From NCBI RefSeq assembly GCF_014692675.1, contig NZ_JABFCZ010000020.1, positions 1 to 64,000 on the forward strand: a DNA stretch of 64,000 bases, written 5' to 3'. Source of the DNA: Roseibium aggregatum. GTDB lineage: Bacteria > Pseudomonadota > Alphaproteobacteria > Rhizobiales > Stappiaceae. Shown piece by piece: positions 47,108-55,003 of this stretch. Under the pieces are notes generated by a model that worked only from the letters and a program-made list of their open reading frames with translations, ran no database searches and was not told the origin of the DNA. A program made the position numbers and the translations under genes. The stretch's first letter is position 1; each line of letters opens with the position of its first letter.

Positions 47108-48886
47108 TCAGCCGACGACCTTCGCGCGGTCCTTGCCCGTCTGGCGCAATTCGGCGTCGCGTTTGGCCTTGGCGACCGCTTCCTGACCCCCCCGGGTTTC
47201 CGTCATCATGGACAGATCCTGCTGATTGTCCTGATCCACCGGCGTCAGCGCCAGGTCCGTATAGGTCTTGCGGTCCGGCGCCCGCTTGACCGCCTTGTAG
47301 CGCCAGTAGAACCGGGCGACGTTGCTCACGATCGCCCAGTGCTTGGAAACGATCTCGGTGAGATAGCGGGGATAGAAGACCAGCGGATTTTCGATCGGCA
47401 GGCCCGAGCGGCGGTCGGTGCGCACCTTGATCCGGAAATAGCCGCCTTCCAGCGGATGGACGCCCTCGTAGCGGACCATCAGCCAGAACCACATCATCAG
47501 GAACAGCTTGTTGCCCGGCCGGCCTTTCGGATGGGCGGCGGCCCGGCGCAGCACCGTCGTGACGTGGTCCATGCTGTAATAGCTGTCCCAGGCGGACCGG
47601 TAGGCGTCCTCCCATTCGGCGTCCGACATGACCGGGTGATGGCTGACCCGGTGGTTGAGATCGTATTTGTTAAGATCCGGATCCATCCAGATGCCCTTTT
47701 CCAGAAGCACCTTGTGGTCTTCGGAACCAGGCAGCGGCGTCAGGAAGAAGAACTCCAGCAGGTCGAGCGGCAGTTCCTTCTTGATGATCTCGATGTCGCG
47801 CAGGACGGATTCCTTGGTGTCCCCCGGGAAGCCGATGATGTAGCCGGCATAGGTGGTCGCGCCGTGGTCGCGCCAGGCGAGCAGCATCTCGCGGTATTCG
47901 GTGATCTTGTTCTGCCGCTTCTTGGCGGCCATCAGGTTGTCCGGGTTGATGTTCTCAAGCCCGATGAACACCCGGTTGACCCCGGCCCGCGTCGCCTTCT
48001 CGATGAAGTTCTTGATCCGGTGACAGAGCGTGTCGACCTGGATGATGAACTTGATGTCGAAGCCCTCTTCCTCGCGCAGGTAGATCAGCCGGTCGAACAG
48101 TTCCTCCCAATGGCGGTTGCGGGCGAAATTGTCGTCGGTGATGAAGAAGCGGTTGATCTTCTGGGCGTAGTTGTCGCGGATGATCCGCTCCAGGTCGTCG
48201 GCGGAGCGGAACCGGCTCTTGCGCCCCTGCACGTTGATGATGGTGCAGAAGGAGCACTGGAACGGGCAGCCGCGTCCCAGATCGAAACTGGAATGGGAGC
48301 CGGCGGTAAACTGGATGTGCTTCGACGGCAGGATCGGCGTCGGCTCGCCATCGAGCGACGGCAGGTCCGACATGAAATTGTAGATCGGCTTGAGCTCGCC
48401 CGCATAGGCATGACGGAAGACATCGTCCAGGCGCAGATCCTCCGCCTCGCCGGCGAAGAAGGTGATCCCCATCTTCTGCGCGTCCACCATCTCCTGCGGC
48501 ATTTCCTTGAGCATGGACATGCACCCGGAAACGTGGAAGCCGCCGATGGCGACCGGCAGATCCGCCTTCAGGAATTTCTGCGCCAGGTCGACCGCGCGCG
48601 GAAACTGGTTGGACTGCACGCCGACCAGGCCGATCAGGGCCTTGCCGCCGGACTGCCGGATCATGCGGATGATCTTCGCCGGCTTCACCCGCGTGTTGGT
48701 CTCGTCATAGGTGTGCAGGTGGATCCGCACATCCGGGCCCAGCGCCTTCCGCTCGATCGCAGCCTCGGCAAGGCCGTTCAGGCAGGCAAGCGTATTGGAG
48801 GGGATCGCGGAACGCAGCCATTGGATCGGATAGCCGTCGTCGTCGTAATGCGTCGGCTTGATCATGATGAAATGGAGGTCTTCCAC
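47108..48886 (-). CDS. B12-binding-type radical SAM protein
   Basis: A 592-residue radical SAM enzyme. The N-terminal part (about 25-160) resembles the cobalamin-binding Rossmann domain, with IGLVGVQSNQFPRAVDLAQK and IGGFHVSGCM. The [4Fe-4S] motif CxxxCxxC is C207, C211, C214 in GRGCPFQCSFCTI. LENINPDNL and AGYIIGFPGDTKESVLRD follow, as in the Elp3/MiaB-like barrel. The C-terminal 150 residues are extra and contain hydrophobic stretches. The chemistry cannot be assigned. It is followed on the same strand (182-base gap) by the GNAT-C39 and RLAN genes. Confidence 0.85.
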   Translation of the reverse strand: MEDLHFIMIKPTHYDDDGYPIQWLRSAIPSNTLACLNGLAEAAIERKALGPDVRIHLHTYDETNTRVKPAKIIRMIRQSGGKALIGLVGVQSNQFPRAVDLAQKFLKADLPVAIGGFHVSGCMSMLKEMPQEMVDAQKMGITFFAGEAEDLRLDDVFRHAYAGELKPIYNFMSDLPSLDGEPTPILPSKHIQFTAGSHSSFDLGRGCPFQCSFCTIINVQGRKSRFRSADDLERIIRDNYAQKINRFFITDDNFARNRHWEELFDRLIYLREEEGFDIKFIIQVDTLCHRIKNFIEKATRAGVNRVFIGLENINPDNLMAAKKRQNKITEYREMLLAWRDHGATTYAGYIIGFPGDTKESVLRDIEIIKKELPLDLLEFFFLTPLPGSEDHKVLLEKGIWMDPDLNKYDLNHRVSHHPVMSDAEWEDAYRSAWDSYYSMDHVTTVLRRAAAHPKGRPGNKLFLMMWFWLMVRYEGVHPLEGGYFRIKVRTDRRSGLPIENPLVFYPRYLTEIVSKHWAIVSNVARFYWRYKAVKRAPDRKTYTDLALTPVDQDNQQDLSMMTETRGGQEAVAKAKRDAELRQTGKDRAKVVG

Positions 48887-49144: not shown

Positions 49145-49849
49145 ATGAAAGACCGCATTGTCATGGTCACAGGCGCATCGGGAAACCTCGGCAGCGCCGT
49201 CGTCGATACGCTTCGGCCCTCGTGTACGGGTATCGTCTGCGTGAATTACAGCGGCGAAGCCACGGAACAGCTTGAGCTTGGCGCCGACGGAAAAGCCGCG
49301 CTGCTCACGATCGGCGGCACCGACACCTCCAGCCCGGAAGCCTGCCAGACCGCGGTCGACAAGTGTCTTGCCGCCTTCGGCAGGCTCGACGGGCTCGTCA
49401 ATACGGTCGGCGGGTTCGGCATGGGCCCTGTCGATGACGACGGCATCGCGCTGTGGGAAAAATTCATGTCGATGAACGCAAAGACGGCCTATTGCATCAG
49501 CGCCGCCGTGCTGAAGCCCATGCAGGAGGCGGGCTTCGGACGCATCGTCCACATTGCCGCCGCCCCAGGTCTGAAGGCCGGCGCCCGGCAGGCGGCCTAT
49601 GCCGCGTCCAAATCCGCCGTCATCCGCCTGACGGAAGCGATCGCGGCAGAAAACCGCAAGCACGGCATCTCCGCCAACTGCATTCTGCCCGGCACCATCG
49701 ATACGCCGCAGAACCGGGAGGCGATGCCGGATGCGAACACCGATACCTGGGTCAAGCCGGAATCGATCGCCCGGCTGATCGCCTTCCTCATGACGCCGGA
49801 AGGCGGCGTGACCACCGGCGGCGCAATTCCTGCAACCGGCAAGGTGTGA
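49145..49849 (+). CDS. Short-chain dehydrogenase/reductase (SDR)
   Basis: A 234-residue classical SDR. The cofactor motif is VTGASGNLG (TGxxxGxG), then LVNTVGGFG in place of NNAG. The catalytic segment has H553-like context IVHIAAAPGL followed by QAAYAASKSAVIRLTEAIA (YxxxK). The C-terminal NCILPGTIDTPQNREAM is typical. The Ser before YxxxK is replaced by Ala/His context, so activity should be tested. GGAGGGACGTC precedes the ATG. It is 6 bases upstream of the small membrane protein gene and probably in the same operon. Confidence 0.85.
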   Translation: MKDRIVMVTGASGNLGSAVVDTLRPSCTGIVCVNYSGEATEQLELGADGKAALLTIGGTDTSSPEACQTAVDKCLAAFGRLDGLVNTVGGFGMGPVDDDGIALWEKFMSMNAKTAYCISAAVLKPMQEAGFGRIVHIAAAPGLKAGARQAAYAASKSAVIRLTEAIAAENRKHGISANCILPGTIDTPQNREAMPDANTDTWVKPESIARLIAFLMTPEGGVTTGGAIPATGKV

Positions 49850-49855
49850 CCGCCC

Positions 49856-50071
49856 ATGCTGTCATTGTCCGATCCCGTTGCACTGGGCCTCGCCATCTGG
49901 GCCGCGATCGGCCTTGTGACAGGGGTCGCGTTTCTTCTTTACGGCATCGACCGGATCGATGAGGCGGCCGAGGGCGCCTATGCGGTGCGGCCGCTGCTGC
50001 TTCCCGGGATCGTTCTTCTCTGGCCCCTGGTTCTGTGGCGCTGGCGGGTCCTGTCGAAAAGGAGCCGCTGA
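49856..50071 (+). CDS. Small membrane protein, 71 residues
   Basis: Two hydrophobic segments (LAIWAAIGLVTGVAFLLYGI and LLLPGIVLLWPLVLWRW) joined by a short acidic loop IDEAAEGAYAV. No family recognised. Its TGA overlaps the ATG of the next small gene, and it lies in a compact set of membrane genes around a Rieske protein, so it is likely an accessory subunit of that complex. Confidence 0.75.
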   Translation: MLSLSDPVALGLAIWAAIGLVTGVAFLLYGIDRIDEAAEGAYAVRPLLLPGIVLLWPLVLWRWRVLSKRSR

Positions 50072-50235
50072 TGCAGCGCAGGCACCGACGGGCCCATGCC
50101 GCCATCTGGACGCTGCTGGCGATTGTCCTGCCTGTGGCGCTGGCCGTCATTTTTCTGAGCTACCCCAGGCTTTCCAGGGATGCGCCGGCCATCCGGCTGG
50201 ATGAACCGGGCAAGACGGCGGCAGGGCAGTCATGA
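50071..50235 (+). CDS. Small single-pass membrane protein, 54 residues
   Basis: A basic N-terminus (MQRRHRRAHA) is followed by one transmembrane segment (IWTLLAIVLPVALAVIFLSY) and a short polar tail. The ATG at 50071 overlaps the stop of the gene upstream, and the stop overlaps the start of the Rieske gene. The tight overlaps are the main evidence that this very short frame is real. Confidence 0.72.
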   Translation: MQRRHRRAHAAIWTLLAIVLPVALAVIFLSYPRLSRDAPAIRLDEPGKTAAGQS

Positions 50236-51320
50236 GCGTTTCCTATCAGCCGGTCATCTGGAACAGGACCAAGATCATCTACGATGCGGTGCTGATCGTG
50301 GCGATCGTCGCCTATGTCCTCATTTTCCTGAAACTCGGGCCGATGCTCTCGCCGGCGATGGCGGAAACCAATCCGCCCATCTTGAGGATGCGGGCCTTCG
50401 GGTCTCTTGCCCTGATCCTGCTGACGGTGGTGCTTGCGATCGGACCACTTGCCCGGCTCGACGTGCGCTTCATGCCGCTTCTTTATAACCGCCGCCATTT
50501 CGGCGTGATGACCGCGATCGTCGCCGCCACCCATGCCTGGTACGTGCTTGCCTGGTATTTCGCCTTCAGCCCGACGCCGCAATTGCTCGCGCTCTTCACC
50601 AGCAACACCAGCTTCGCCCAGGTTTCCGGTTTTCCCTTCGAGCTGTTCGGCGTGTTCGCGCTGACGATCCTTGCCGTTCTTGCCGCGACCAGCCACGATT
50701 TCTGGCTCTCCTTCCTGTCGCCGGCGATCTGGAAGGCGATCCACATGAGCGTCTATGCGGCCTATGCAGCCGTCGTGCTTCACGTGGCGCTCGGGGCGCT
50801 TGCCGACGGCAGGAATGCGGCCCTCGGCGTCTTCCTGTTCGCGAGCCTCGGAACCTTGTGCGCCCTGCATCTGATCGCCGGCAGGCGGGAGCGGGCTGCC
50901 GACAAGGCCGGTTCGCCAGAAGTCGACCGGACGGGTTGGATCGACATCGGCGACGTCAGCGAGATCGCGGAAAACCGGGCGATCATCGGGGCCGCCCCCG
51001 GCGGCGAGAGGATTGCCGTCTTCCGCTCGAAGGGAAAGCTCTCTGCCATTTCCAATGTGTGTTCGCATCAGAATGGCCCGGTCGGCGAAGGCAAGGTCGT
51101 GCTCGGCCTGGTTACCTGCCCCTGGCACGGCTACCAGTATCGGCTTGAGGACGGCTGTTCGCCGCCGCCCTTCAAGGAACGCATCCGCAAGTACCGTGTT
51201 GCGTTGTCCGGCACCCGGGTTCTGGTCGATCCGGAGCCCTTGCCGCTCGGAACCCGCTTGGAACCGCTTGCCATCCCCGAAGACACGCTCGCGGCCCCTG
51301 CCGCGCCGAGCGGAGGCTGA
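50232..51320 (+). CDS. Ferric reductase-like transmembrane domain fused to a Rieske [2Fe-2S] domain
   Basis: A 362-residue fusion. Residues 15-215 hold six hydrophobic segments with His residues placed as in cytochrome b-type ferric reductase domains: H101 in AATHAWY, H171 and H184 in KAIHMSVYAAYAAVVLHVALG. Residues 235-330 are a Rieske domain with C277-S-H279 and C296-P-W-H299 as cluster ligands. Electrons could pass between haem and the [2Fe-2S] centre within one chain. Small membrane proteins overlap it on both sides, which points to a multi-subunit membrane redox complex of unknown partner. Confidence 0.85.
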   Translation: MSVSYQPVIWNRTKIIYDAVLIVAIVAYVLIFLKLGPMLSPAMAETNPPILRMRAFGSLALILLTVVLAIGPLARLDVRFMPLLYNRRHFGVMTAIVAATHAWYVLAWYFAFSPTPQLLALFTSNTSFAQVSGFPFELFGVFALTILAVLAATSHDFWLSFLSPAIWKAIHMSVYAAYAAVVLHVALGALADGRNAALGVFLFASLGTLCALHLIAGRRERAADKAGSPEVDRTGWIDIGDVSEIAENRAIIGAAPGGERIAVFRSKGKLSAISNVCSHQNGPVGEGKVVLGLVTCPWHGYQYRLEDGCSPPPFKERIRKYRVALSGTRVLVDPEPLPLGTRLEPLAIPEDTLAAPAAPSGG

Positions 51321-51322
51321 CC

Positions 51323-52087
51323 ATGCTGAAACCACCGGAGCGCGGCTTCTTCGTCGGCTATTTCAAGAAGGTGCCTGCCGACATCCGCAGGCTGATGCTG
51401 GTCTTTATCGCAACTTTCATAGGGACCTTCGCCGCCGCCGCCTTCGTCCTGGCGCTGGACACGGACAGCCCGGGTTCGGGATCCTTTGCCGGGCCGCCGC
51501 CCGAAGGCGAGATCACCGGAACCATCGACCTGTTGCCCTACCCCGTCCTGCGGGTCGCGGCATCCCCGGGCTCGCCGGCACGGGCGATCATGCTGGCCGG
51601 AACCGGAAAGTTCGGTGTGTCGGACCGGGCGGAGAAGCTGAAAGGAAAATCGGTCGTTGTCGGCGGTTTTTTCGTCAAGCGCGGCGATCTTGAGATGCTG
51701 CTGGTCGGCGGCAAGATGAAGGCGGAGGATGAACAGCCGGCGGACCTGCCGGTGCCGCAAGCCCCCGAAGACCTTGGCCGCTGGCGTCTGACCGGAGAAA
51801 TCTGCGACGGAAAATGTGCTGCCGGCGCCATGCGCCCGGGCACGGGCCTTGCCCACAAGGCCTGCGCCAACCTGTGTATCAGCGGCGGCGTGCCGCCCGT
51901 CTTCGTCTCCACCGCGCCGGTTGAAGGACGCAGTTTCTTCCTCATGGCGTCTGCCGATGGCGGACCGATGCCGGCGTGGCTTTTGAACAAAACCGCCATC
52001 CCCGTGGTGCTGGAGGGCCGTGTCGAGCGCCGCGACGATCTTCTGGTCTTCAAGGTGGACGGGCAAGCAAAGGACGGCGGAACATGA
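51323..52087 (+). CDS. Membrane-anchored protein with conserved Cys/His motif
   Basis: A 254-residue protein with one N-terminal transmembrane segment (LMLVFIATFIGTFAAAAFVLAL) and a large exported part. The core (about 60-130) looks like a small beta domain. Then comes C161-x3-C165, MRPGTG, H178-K-A-C181-x3-C185-ISGGVPP. This Cys/His set could bind a metal or haem. I do not recognise a named family. It starts 3 bases after the Rieske gene and its end overlaps the next gene, so it is part of the same complex or its assembly. Confidence 0.75.
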   Translation: MLKPPERGFFVGYFKKVPADIRRLMLVFIATFIGTFAAAAFVLALDTDSPGSGSFAGPPPEGEITGTIDLLPYPVLRVAASPGSPARAIMLAGTGKFGVSDRAEKLKGKSVVVGGFFVKRGDLEMLLVGGKMKAEDEQPADLPVPQAPEDLGRWRLTGEICDGKCAAGAMRPGTGLAHKACANLCISGGVPPVFVSTAPVEGRSFFLMASADGGPMPAWLLNKTAIPVVLEGRVERRDDLLVFKVDGQAKDGGT

Positions 52088-52290
52088 GCGAAAAGACGAA
52101 ATCGCCCGTCAGGCACCTTGTCGGGCTGACCGCAGCCGTTCTTGCCCTGGCCGTTATCCTGTGGGCTTGGCAGGACGGACTGAATTTCCTGAACGGAACG
52201 GTTTTTTCCGAATTGCGCTATCTGGCGTTCGCCGGCTTCGTCGTGGTGTTTCTGACCGCCGTCAACAAGGTGATGGACCGGTTTTTTTAG
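52084..52290 (+). CDS. Small membrane protein, 68 residues
   Basis: Two hydrophobic segments (LVGLTAAVLALAVILWAW and LAFAGFVVVFLTAVNKV) with a short loop. The ATG at 52084 overlaps the stop of the preceding gene. It is the last gene of the redox-complex operon; the AT-richer islet begins just after it. Confidence 0.75.
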   Translation: MSEKTKSPVRHLVGLTAAVLALAVILWAWQDGLNFLNGTVFSELRYLAFAGFVVVFLTAVNKVMDRFF

Positions 52291-52346
52291 ACAGAACCTG
52301 AAAAAAGACTAAGTAACTATACGATCGACATTATTTAAATCAGCGA

Positions 52347-53777
52347 TCAACCATGTAGATGGAGACGTAGCCGAACGCCATATTTGGCCGATTGCGTCCC
52401 TGCCGCTGTAACTGCGTTATCAATCCAAGTATCGAATATCTCTAACGCCGCTTCCTCGCTCAAAAGTCCGTGCTGAACGGCTTGATGGAAGTAGTCGAAG
52501 TTCTTAACCTCCATTTGCCTTCCATTGATCTCCTTATGGATTGTAGTGACACGTGATCGCTTGTCCACCACCACAGTAAAGCCTCGCTTTCGCAGCTCAG
52601 CCCATAGATGCGCAGGATTAAACGCTGTCATAACAATGACATAACCGAAGATAATGTCATACAGAATATGAGCATCCAGCGGCCACCAGAAGAATGGGTC
52701 AGTGCCCGTCAACATTGGCGGATAACCGCTGTCGTGATTTCCGAGACTGCTGACAAATAGGCAATTGTCATCCAATTCGTTAGACAGGATTGCCAGTGCA
52801 GCATCCTGAACGGGCTTGAGAGCTTTCTCTCTTGGCCCCGTCTTCCTCATCAGCCTTCGCCCCAAACTCGATATCTTGCGGGGCCGCCATGCCCCTATGG
52901 TCAGACCTGATCCCGCTTGTCTGAACCGCACTACACGGGTTTCGCTCTTACCTACGACCTGAGCCAAAATGCCGTGGTGAAATTGGGTCTTCATGTCAAT
53001 GCGGACATCATCCTTCGATTTCTTTTTGTTGGTGAATGCAGCGGATATCTGCTTAACCTGCCGGTTCAGCGTTTCCCTAACGCCTGGTTCCAAAGGGATA
53101 GCCTGCTCATCATTTGCGGCATCTACTGGCGGAATAACCAGACTCTTTTCGTCCCCGGCTACAATGCCGAGAGCGATTTGATACTGGTCTTCACCCATAT
53201 GCTTAGTTTTCAGTTCGCCTACACATGCGATTTTCCCTGAGCTTGGATCATAGAAGCTGACATCGCCCAATCGAAGGATCGATGTAATACCGTGATAGAT
53301 TACAAAATTTCCCTCAAATCCTTGTAGTTTCTCAACAAATGCCCGTTCTCCAATCCCGCCTATTCCAGGGGGGAGGAGTAATTGCCGTTGGTGCATCGCA
53401 TGTTGCTCCAAAAGAGCTGGTTCATTACGGTAGAATACCCACGCGAAGCCATCGCCCAGACACCGGCCAATTCCCAGAGCTTCAATGATGACATTGCGGT
53501 ATTGGGCTAGCTGTGCCATTCGATTATCGAACCATTCAGCACTGTACAAAGATTTGCGGCCGATCAGGCGCCTTTCGGCTGCCTTGATGGCTCGATAGGT
53601 CGTGCAGAGGCGCTCGAAAGCCGTTGTGAGACGAACCTGAAAATCAAAGATCGCCTGCCTGGATTTTAGTTTCTTTCGGGGTGTTCGGAGAAACTCCCAG
53701 CACCACTGGAAGTGGACATCGGCTGCGTCGACGCTTTCGATCACTAAGCGCTTTGAGATGGACGTCGACCTCATCAC
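52347..53777 (-). CDS. Unrecognised protein with PD-(D/E)XK-like motif, in AT-richer islet
   Basis: A 476-residue protein that I do not recognise. Around residues 168-192 it has LRLGDVSFYD...CVGELKTKH, with D172/D177, E188 and K190 arranged as in PD-(D/E)XK nuclease cores (D-x(n)-E-x-K on successive strands). The N-terminal 130 residues are helical. The C-terminal part has VIVMTAFNPAHLWAELRKRGF and IDNAVTAAG. Base composition and codon use are visibly more AT-rich than the flanks. Together with the next gene it suggests a horizontally acquired pair, possibly defence-related, but this is only a guess. Confidence 0.6.
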   Translation of the reverse strand: MMRSTSISKRLVIESVDAADVHFQWCWEFLRTPRKKLKSRQAIFDFQVRLTTAFERLCTTYRAIKAAERRLIGRKSLYSAEWFDNRMAQLAQYRNVIIEALGIGRCLGDGFAWVFYRNEPALLEQHAMHQRQLLLPPGIGGIGERAFVEKLQGFEGNFVIYHGITSILRLGDVSFYDPSSGKIACVGELKTKHMGEDQYQIALGIVAGDEKSLVIPPVDAANDEQAIPLEPGVRETLNRQVKQISAAFTNKKKSKDDVRIDMKTQFHHGILAQVVGKSETRVVRFRQAGSGLTIGAWRPRKISSLGRRLMRKTGPREKALKPVQDAALAILSNELDDNCLFVSSLGNHDSGYPPMLTGTDPFFWWPLDAHILYDIIFGYVIVMTAFNPAHLWAELRKRGFTVVVDKRSRVTTIHKEINGRQMEVKNFDYFHQAVQHGLLSEEAALEIFDTWIDNAVTAAGTQSAKYGVRLRLHLHG

Positions 53778-53908
53778 ATAACCCTTTCCTAGCTCGTAGC
53801 TATGGTAACGTCAGTAGCCGGTCCTCTACATTTCAACCTTTAGACGATTCTGTCACACTGATTTAGCCTGCCCGGGAACTAGTGCGGGCTGTATGGTAGG
53901 TAAACTTA

Positions 53909-55003
53909 ATGTCTTTGGACGGAGAGCATATGGGCGAGGACGAAAATAGAAGAATTCCGGAGGTGCCCACGTTCTCCGAAGACATCTGGCTTGCTTTGGC
54001 TATTGCTTCGGCCGTTTTTACGTTGCTCGGTTTGCTCTTTGCCTTTTGGTGGGTATTTCTTGATCCTGCAGTTGGTGATCATATGACAGAGCGATCTCGT
54101 GCTGTGACACCTTTCCTGGCAGCAGGTGCGGCGGCGGTTACGTTTTTCTCGGTGCTTTGGCGCGGGACAATCAATAGTCGGCAAGCGGATGAAGACCGGC
54201 GGCAAAACGATAGTCGGGAAGAGGCTGAACTTGCCTTACTTCTAGAAAAGGCTTCCGACTTTGTTGCATCAGAACGTCCCGAGAAGGTCAGCCTTGGCTT
54301 AACAATGTTTGAAACAGTCGTTTTGGCTGACAATAGGAAATATGCGGCTCCAGCACTTGAGCTTGTATATGATCAATTAGTGCCCGCGCATCGAGAAAGA
54401 GATGAATTTGGGCTTCGCATTATTGGGCAGATCGAGCGGATTTTTATAAATGCGAAAACGAAGAAAAATCTAAAGCCAGAGCGTAGGTGGTTGGATTTTA
54501 GCGCAGTACATAAAGAAGGAGGAAGCAAAACGAATCTTACCTTCGATTTTAGAGCAATATACCCTGTTACTTCTGTCATAGGCGCAAAAATCTACGCTGA
54601 TCCGGAAGAATTGGCAAAACTCAAGGAAGAGGAGGGGCGATGCAGCTTTTCGAAGTGTAATTTTAGTTTTAGTTTTAGCTTTGAGGCCGATGTACCCCTC
54701 CGACTGGATAATTGGTATTTCTTCGAATGTGCTTTCTATGGCTTGGATATTTCATATCTCTCGTGGCACTTACGTTCTGCAAAGTGCACGTTCGAGAAAT
54801 GTGACTTCTCCGGCGCTGTTTTTGAATACTCGGATATCCTCCATTCCAACACGTTCATAGAATGCACTTTTGCCGGTGACCAGCCGCCACAGATTGAGAA
54901 TATCGTAGAGCCCGACCTGCAGGAAAATTTAGACACAATAAAATTTCTTGCTGAAGCTGCGAATATCTTTCCGGCGATAGAGAAGGATGAAATTCCTTTC
55001 TAA
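53909..55003 (+). CDS. Two-TM membrane protein with pentapeptide-like C-terminus, in AT-richer islet
   Basis: A 364-residue protein. Two hydrophobic segments lie near the N-terminus (about 28-52 and 66-86), followed by a charged coiled-coil-like stretch (SRQADEDRRQNDSREEAELA). The C-terminal third repeats F/C-x(4) units such as CSFSKCNFSFSFSFEA, FFECAFYG, CTFEKCDFSG and NTFIECTFAG, like degenerate pentapeptide repeats forming a right-handed beta helix. The gene is strongly AT-rich compared with the rest. Function unknown. The 131 bases to the divergent gene at 53777 hold the promoters, and the 220 bases after it carry nothing recognisable. Confidence 0.65.
   Translation: MSLDGEHMGEDENRRIPEVPTFSEDIWLALAIASAVFTLLGLLFAFWWVFLDPAVGDHMTERSRAVTPFLAAGAAAVTFFSVLWRGTINSRQADEDRRQNDSREEAELALLLEKASDFVASERPEKVSLGLTMFETVVLADNRKYAAPALELVYDQLVPAHRERDEFGLRIIGQIERIFINAKTKKNLKPERRWLDFSAVHKEGGSKTNLTFDFRAIYPVTSVIGAKIYADPEELAKLKEEEGRCSFSKCNFSFSFSFEADVPLRLDNWYFFECAFYGLDISYLSWHLRSAKCTFEKCDFSGAVFEYSDILHSNTFIECTFAGDQPPQIENIVEPDLQENLDTIKFLAEAANIFPAIEKDEIPF

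Follow-up and report, generated by a model that had tools for sequence, protein, structure and literature searches.

The closest described systems to the locus analysed here are membrane proteins with a ferric-reductase-type domain. MsrQ-like proteins export electrons to periplasmic partners (PMC11564096, PMC8238504), and MsrQ, the nearest characterised relative of the orfC protein described below, uses quinone (PMC11564096). A 2013 survey of ferric reductase domains (FRDs) lists Rieske as one of the electron-transfer domains joined to them, and recognises YedZ and STEAP proteins by an arginine where the first spanning histidine would otherwise be (PMC3591440). The union of a ferric reductase domain and a Rieske domain is thus already known as a domain architecture. 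A sequence-only reading of the locus had called it an undescribed membrane electron-transfer complex. The gene set, the folds and the invariant Cys/His residues fit such a complex in all tests, but the FRD-Rieske architecture had already appeared in the survey, whose relevant passages contain no description of orfA, orfB, orfD and orfE, of the set as a whole and how it is conserved, or of Rieske-fused partner enzymes. A literature search, largely confined to papers outside subscription journals, returned no accounts of the gene set, of the A, B, D and E families or of the Rieske-fused partners.

The window is a 64,000-nucleotide stretch of a Roseibium aggregatum contig. Five genes on its forward strand occupy positions 49856-52290, to the base where the sequence-only reading had placed five overlapping or nearly overlapping genes. 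The genes orfA (49856-50071) and orfB (50071-50235) encode proteins of 71 and 54 residues with two and one membrane segments, respectively, as assigned from hydropathy. They are followed by orfC (50232-51320), whose 362-residue product contains a ferric-reductase domain and a Rieske domain according to Pfam, and by orfD (51323-52087), which encodes a 254-residue single-pass protein with an N-terminal membrane anchor, as indicated by its AF2 model and hydropathy. The last gene, orfE (52084-52290), encodes 68 residues with two membrane segments, based on hydropathy; the hydropathy profiles thus fit the three tiny membrane proteins of the earlier reading. The orfA/orfB junction is a TGATG with an overlap of one nucleotide, the orfB/orfC and orfD/orfE junctions are ATGA overlaps, and orfC and orfD are separated by two nucleotides. 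Neither Pfam nor NCBIfam gave a family match above cut-off for orfA, orfB, orfD or orfE. The five-gene set was confirmed but incomplete, since a gene of an SDR-family oxidoreductase (49145-49849, forward strand, 234 residues, Pfam adh_short 1.8e-36) ends six bases before the start of orfA and is the first gene of the operon in the window's branch of the module family.

The Pfam matches of orfC exceed the gathering cut-offs for both Ferric_reduct (PF01794, 42.7 bits versus 28) and Rieske (PF00355, 53.5 bits versus 20.3), in agreement with the fusion proposed from the sequence, and PF01794 is also matched by all six members of set A2. The AF2 model of orfC (pLDDT 85.6) has a six-helix ferric-reductase domain followed by a C-terminal dioxygenase-type Rieske ferredoxin. 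The membrane domain matches STEAP2 with a Z-score of 16.9 over 204 residues within 12-228, and NOX5 with about 15. Unlike STEAP and NOX/FRE proteins, with which it would share transmembrane electron transfer, orfC lacks the FAD/NADPH domain, and a Rieske [2Fe-2S] domain replaces the cytosolic flavin domain. Nor does orfC have the four spanning histidines of long-form NOX/FRE proteins, as the position of the first is taken by R87. Alignment with an MsrQ places H101, H171 and H184 of orfC on MsrQ histidines and R87 on its arginine. The RR signature, the six-helix domain, the termini predicted to be both inside and the pairing with a periplasmic partner protein are further likenesses to MsrQ/YedZ, whereas the fused Rieske domain and the additional invariant histidines H89, H155 and H213 have no equivalent there. 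The six histidines H89, H101, H155, H171, H184 and H213 are conserved in 91-93 of the readable loci; those of haem-ligand type in transmembrane helices 3 and 5 reach 91/91 (H101) and 92/92 (H171 and H184). Membership of orfC in the MsrPQ system was rejected, as its score against the MsrQ model NF003831 was 32.9 bits in hmmscan and 34.1 in the genome search, below the cut-off of 130, and a separate true MsrQ locus in the same genome scored 136.2 bits. No MsrP-like molybdoenzyme was found in the operon or among the recurring neighbours.

The Rieske domain of orfC (50937-51227, forward strand, residues 236-332, PF00355/PF13806) has the ligand pairs C277-x-H279 and C296-xx-H299, which are conserved in 92-93 of 93 loci. 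Residues 235-340 of the model match the ferredoxin BphA3 with a Z-score of 16.5 over 105 residues. The domain resembles the dioxygenase Rieske ferredoxins BphA3, NdoA and NirD in its fold and CxH/CxxH ligands, but it is fused to a haem-type membrane protein, and the Rieske domains of its relatives are also fused to TPP, glutamate-synthase and FMN-reductase enzymes. Loop charges predict that it is cytosolic. A Rieske subunit of the cytochrome bc1/b6f type was rejected because of this predicted location and the likeness to dioxygenase ferredoxins; no cytochrome b or c1 gene was found in the operon or among the recurring neighbours.

The model of orfD (pLDDT 85.8) consists of an anchor helix and two beta-rich OB-like domains, the second of which bears a Cys/His insertion. 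VIA-align gave middling matches of residues 54-147 to a variety of OB proteins; the best Z-score, 7.5 over 80 residues, lies within the background range, which suggests a common OB arrangement only. Foldseek gave no matches at E<=0.001, and the PDB sequence search gave nothing meaningful. Five positive and two negative charges precede the membrane segment and none and four follow it, so that by the positive-inside distribution the bulk of orfD is predicted to be in the periplasm. The residues C161, C165, H178, C181 and C185 (51803-51877, forward strand), singled out in the sequence-only reading as a possible metal centre, are as it gave them and are kept in 92-93 of 93 loci; this conservation is partly built in for C161 and C165, which lie within the search patterns that fetched most homologues, and H178, C181 and C185 lie outside those patterns. 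Distant secreted homologues of orfD keep C165, H178, C181 and C185 and have valine or isoleucine at 161. The core site is therefore probably Cys3His, and C161 an extra residue of the orfD family. The distant homologues (L126-L132, L133-L139) are secreted proteins of small size whose genes are accompanied by those of another Cys-rich secreted protein and of an SCO-family protein; together they form an unnamed conserved periplasmic set. Some of these sets adjoin OpgC/OpgG/OpgH, TPR and CoA-transferase genes.

The scan of genome contigs with the orfD alignment identified 161 relatives, of which 80 were kept. Almost all of them are labelled Alphaproteobacteria and belong to Rhizobium, Neorhizobium, Methylobrevis, Roseibium, Pseudovibrio, the Roseobacter group, Hyphomicrobium and Rhodobiaceae; one labelled Oceanobacillus is probably contamination. 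Together with the window, the genus copies and the phylum-sample copies, the scan loci gave 93 loci bearing orfD. The conservation of gene order, proposed earlier as a check, holds across them: the order A-B-C-D(-E) is found in all 93 loci, allowing for incomplete contigs and one misassigned C (L116). In the same metagenome-assembled genome (L116), C and D form a single open reading frame, which may be a sequencing artefact. Within the genus Roseibium, full-length C and D are both present in 19 genomes, including that of the window, and both absent in six. Of 385 Alphaproteobacterial genomes, 18 have C and 16 have full-length D, in every case next to C; a sample of 398 genomes from the phylum contained full-length D only within the class. 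Frequent separation of the genes, which the sequence-only reading had held to speak against a complex, was looked for and did not occur, as D is absent beside C in only two of the 18 genomes with C. These two genomes (L172/L173), which share a genus, retain A-B-C followed by a gene for a fusion of Rieske and FMN_red domains, and D is therefore not always the acceptor.

The small genes are not chance open reading frames, because their homologues recur at matching positions: orfA in 90, orfB in 91 and orfE in 83 of the 93 loci. The orfA proteins share the motif RPLL.PG...WPL..RW, with G19, R45, W56 and P57 in 90/90, and orfA and orfB form a single reading frame in 23 loci. The orfE protein is poorly conserved overall, with W29 in 80/83; in the comparison of the 93 loci it was not found in Pseudovibrio, where it is dispensable, and in a few other loci.

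In 52 of 99 loci, at least one soluble Rieske-fused enzyme is encoded immediately near the module, a count that excludes two additional matches (L051, L054) far from it. They are of three unrelated kinds: glutamate-synthase-like, pyruvate-oxidase-like (TPP) and FMN-reductase-like. In Roseibium, the module is preceded by a DUF1194 gene, a Na+/H+ exchanger gene and a gene for a 536-residue Rieske-glutamate-synthase-domain protein. A protein of this kind (L023:5760-7370) contains a C-x5-C-x4-C motif, which we take to be that of the [3Fe-4S] site in the glutamate-synthase domain. A 658-residue Rieske-TPP enzyme, by family matches nearest to pyruvate oxidases, is usually encoded upstream as well. 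Haloarchaea and Mycobacteroides abscessus have plasmid-borne enzymes about 52-60% identical to it (L179-L181), and this uncharacterised enzyme looks to have spread widely by horizontal transfer. No annotated Rieske-ferric-reductase genes were found within 6 kb of these plasmid genes. A constant need of the Rieske-TPP enzyme for the module was rejected; the link is strong and not obligatory, because the enzyme also stands alone on those plasmids. Other Roseibium genomes have BchE-like radical SAM and 5-aminolevulinate synthase genes near the module, possibly by coincidence.

Based on these observations, a mechanism of electron transfer can be proposed. We consider it fairly probable that the products of orfA-E form a single redox module in the membrane, which moves electrons outwards one at a time, from the Rieske domain through haem b to periplasmic orfD. 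A cytosolic donor would reduce the [2Fe-2S] cluster of the Rieske domain of orfC. The electrons may then cross the membrane via one b-type haem or two, bound by the conserved transmembrane histidines, of which H101 and H184 would be near the periplasm and H171, H89 and H213 nearer the cytosol. They would leave to a putative metal centre formed by the Cys/His residues of anchored orfD. The orfA protein, or the orfA-orfB protein, and orfE are presumably small structural subunits. Which enzyme acts as donor would depend on the lineage. In Roseibium, Roseobacter, Pseudovibrio and others it would be a Rieske-fused enzyme of the TPP/FAD, FMN/[3Fe-4S] or FMN-reductase kind; the Rhizobium-type copy in the window would have a putative SDR-linked donor. 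The outward direction is proposed because the MsrQ, STEAP and NOX relatives run outwards (PMC11564096, PMC8238504; general knowledge), because the neighbouring TPP/FAD oxidases and flavin reductases have donor-type chemistry with a release of electrons, and because orfD is placed in the periplasm. Gene order, co-occurrence, the A-B and C-D fusions, ligands, folds, charges and Rieske neighbours count for a single module. Counted against this reading are the window genome without Rieske-fused enzymes, the Rieske-TPP enzyme without the module on plasmids, A-B-C without D, and orfE, which is dispensable in Pseudovibrio.

It is rather unlikely that orfC instead connects the quinone pool with cytosolic Rieske enzymes by exchanging electrons, as a membrane dehydrogenase does, with orfD, orfA, orfB and orfE serving in assembly or stability. 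Pyruvate-oxidase-like enzymes classically reduce quinone, and enzymes of this type are among the neighbours of the module. The use of quinone by MsrQ (PMC11564096) and the two genomes with A-B-C and no D would also suit such a role. However, the five Cys/His residues of orfD vary no more than the cofactor ligands of orfC, and D is kept in 16 of the 18 genomes with C. The reduction or handling of periplasmic metal (Fe3+/Cu2+), with orfC as a STEAP-like metalloreductase and orfD as a metal-binding or redox-relay subunit, is quite improbable. No metal transporters or metal regulators are consistently linked to the module, and its recurring neighbours are metabolic enzymes, although STEAP2 is the best structural match, the distant secreted homologues of orfD are encoded beside SCO-family copper/thiol proteins, and YHS-domain, ECF sigma/NrsF and chlorite-dismutase-family genes are near some copies.

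In the orfC tree, the window copy groups with those of Methylobrevis and Rhizobium in an SDR-type clade (support 100/97 with 9 rows and 100/100 with 14 rows), away from the other Roseibium copies. Its orfD is 64-69% identical to the Rhizobium copies in this clade and about 50% identical to those of its own genus. Neither Rieske-fused enzyme, with a glutamate-synthase domain or TPP, was found in the window genome, and related copies of the module are present on Rhizobium plasmids. Because of the clade placement, the orfD identities and the missing Rieske-fused enzymes, the window copy is best interpreted as a version of Rhizobium type that arrived by horizontal transfer (xenologue). Rhizobium-type loci have the SDR gene directly upstream of orfA; its apparent absence from two loci (L046, L057) seems to be caused by miscalled antisense reading frames. 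Members of the window's SDR branch share an alanine 13 residues before the tyrosine, where the usual catalytic serine is expected, and keep the tyrosine and lysine. We take this combination to be as in dihydropteridine reductase, and by analogy the SDR may act on quinonoid substrates. In Rhizobium (L039-L055, L151), the module is divergent from a gene set of CaiB, OpgC, TPP enzyme, 158-residue protein and TPR; the window genome has counterparts of the TPP and TPR genes at two further sites, next to genes of the CaiB and OpgC types. Genes for an ECF sigma factor, for NrsF and for a member of the chlorite-dismutase family are found near some copies.

It is highly improbable that the window copy is a recently acquired remnant without donor or function, as its grouping with Rhizobium/Methylobrevis rather than its own genus and the absence of the genus's partner enzymes might suggest, since the five reading frames and the SDR gene are intact with all conserved ligands, and the Rhizobium copies also lack nearby Rieske enzymes yet are conserved. 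Directly downstream of orfE, positions 52300-55000 have 46-52% G+C, versus about 62-65% around, and look like a recent insertion; they hold reading frames at 52347-53777 (reverse strand), without a Pfam match, and at 53909-55003 (forward strand). Upstream, a 592-residue radical SAM protein is encoded on the opposite strand (47108-48886).

The Rieske-tagged neighbours stand beside a Rieske-tagged membrane reductase as if the enzymes plug into the module. We tentatively speculate that it is a "Rieske socket", a membrane hub that would take electrons from unrelated Rieske-tagged cytosolic enzymes and pass them outwards via haem to a Cys3His centre of a new type in periplasmic orfD. Ferric-reductase-type transmembrane electron export is known with flavin or quinone donors. 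If true, a conserved system that combines a Rieske entry point with Rieske-tagged soluble enzymes and four partner families as yet uncharacterised would link cytosolic metabolism to the periplasm by another kind of wiring. The module is present in common, tractable bacteria, including Rhizobium, Roseibium, Pseudovibrio and the Roseobacter group, and is thus directly testable.
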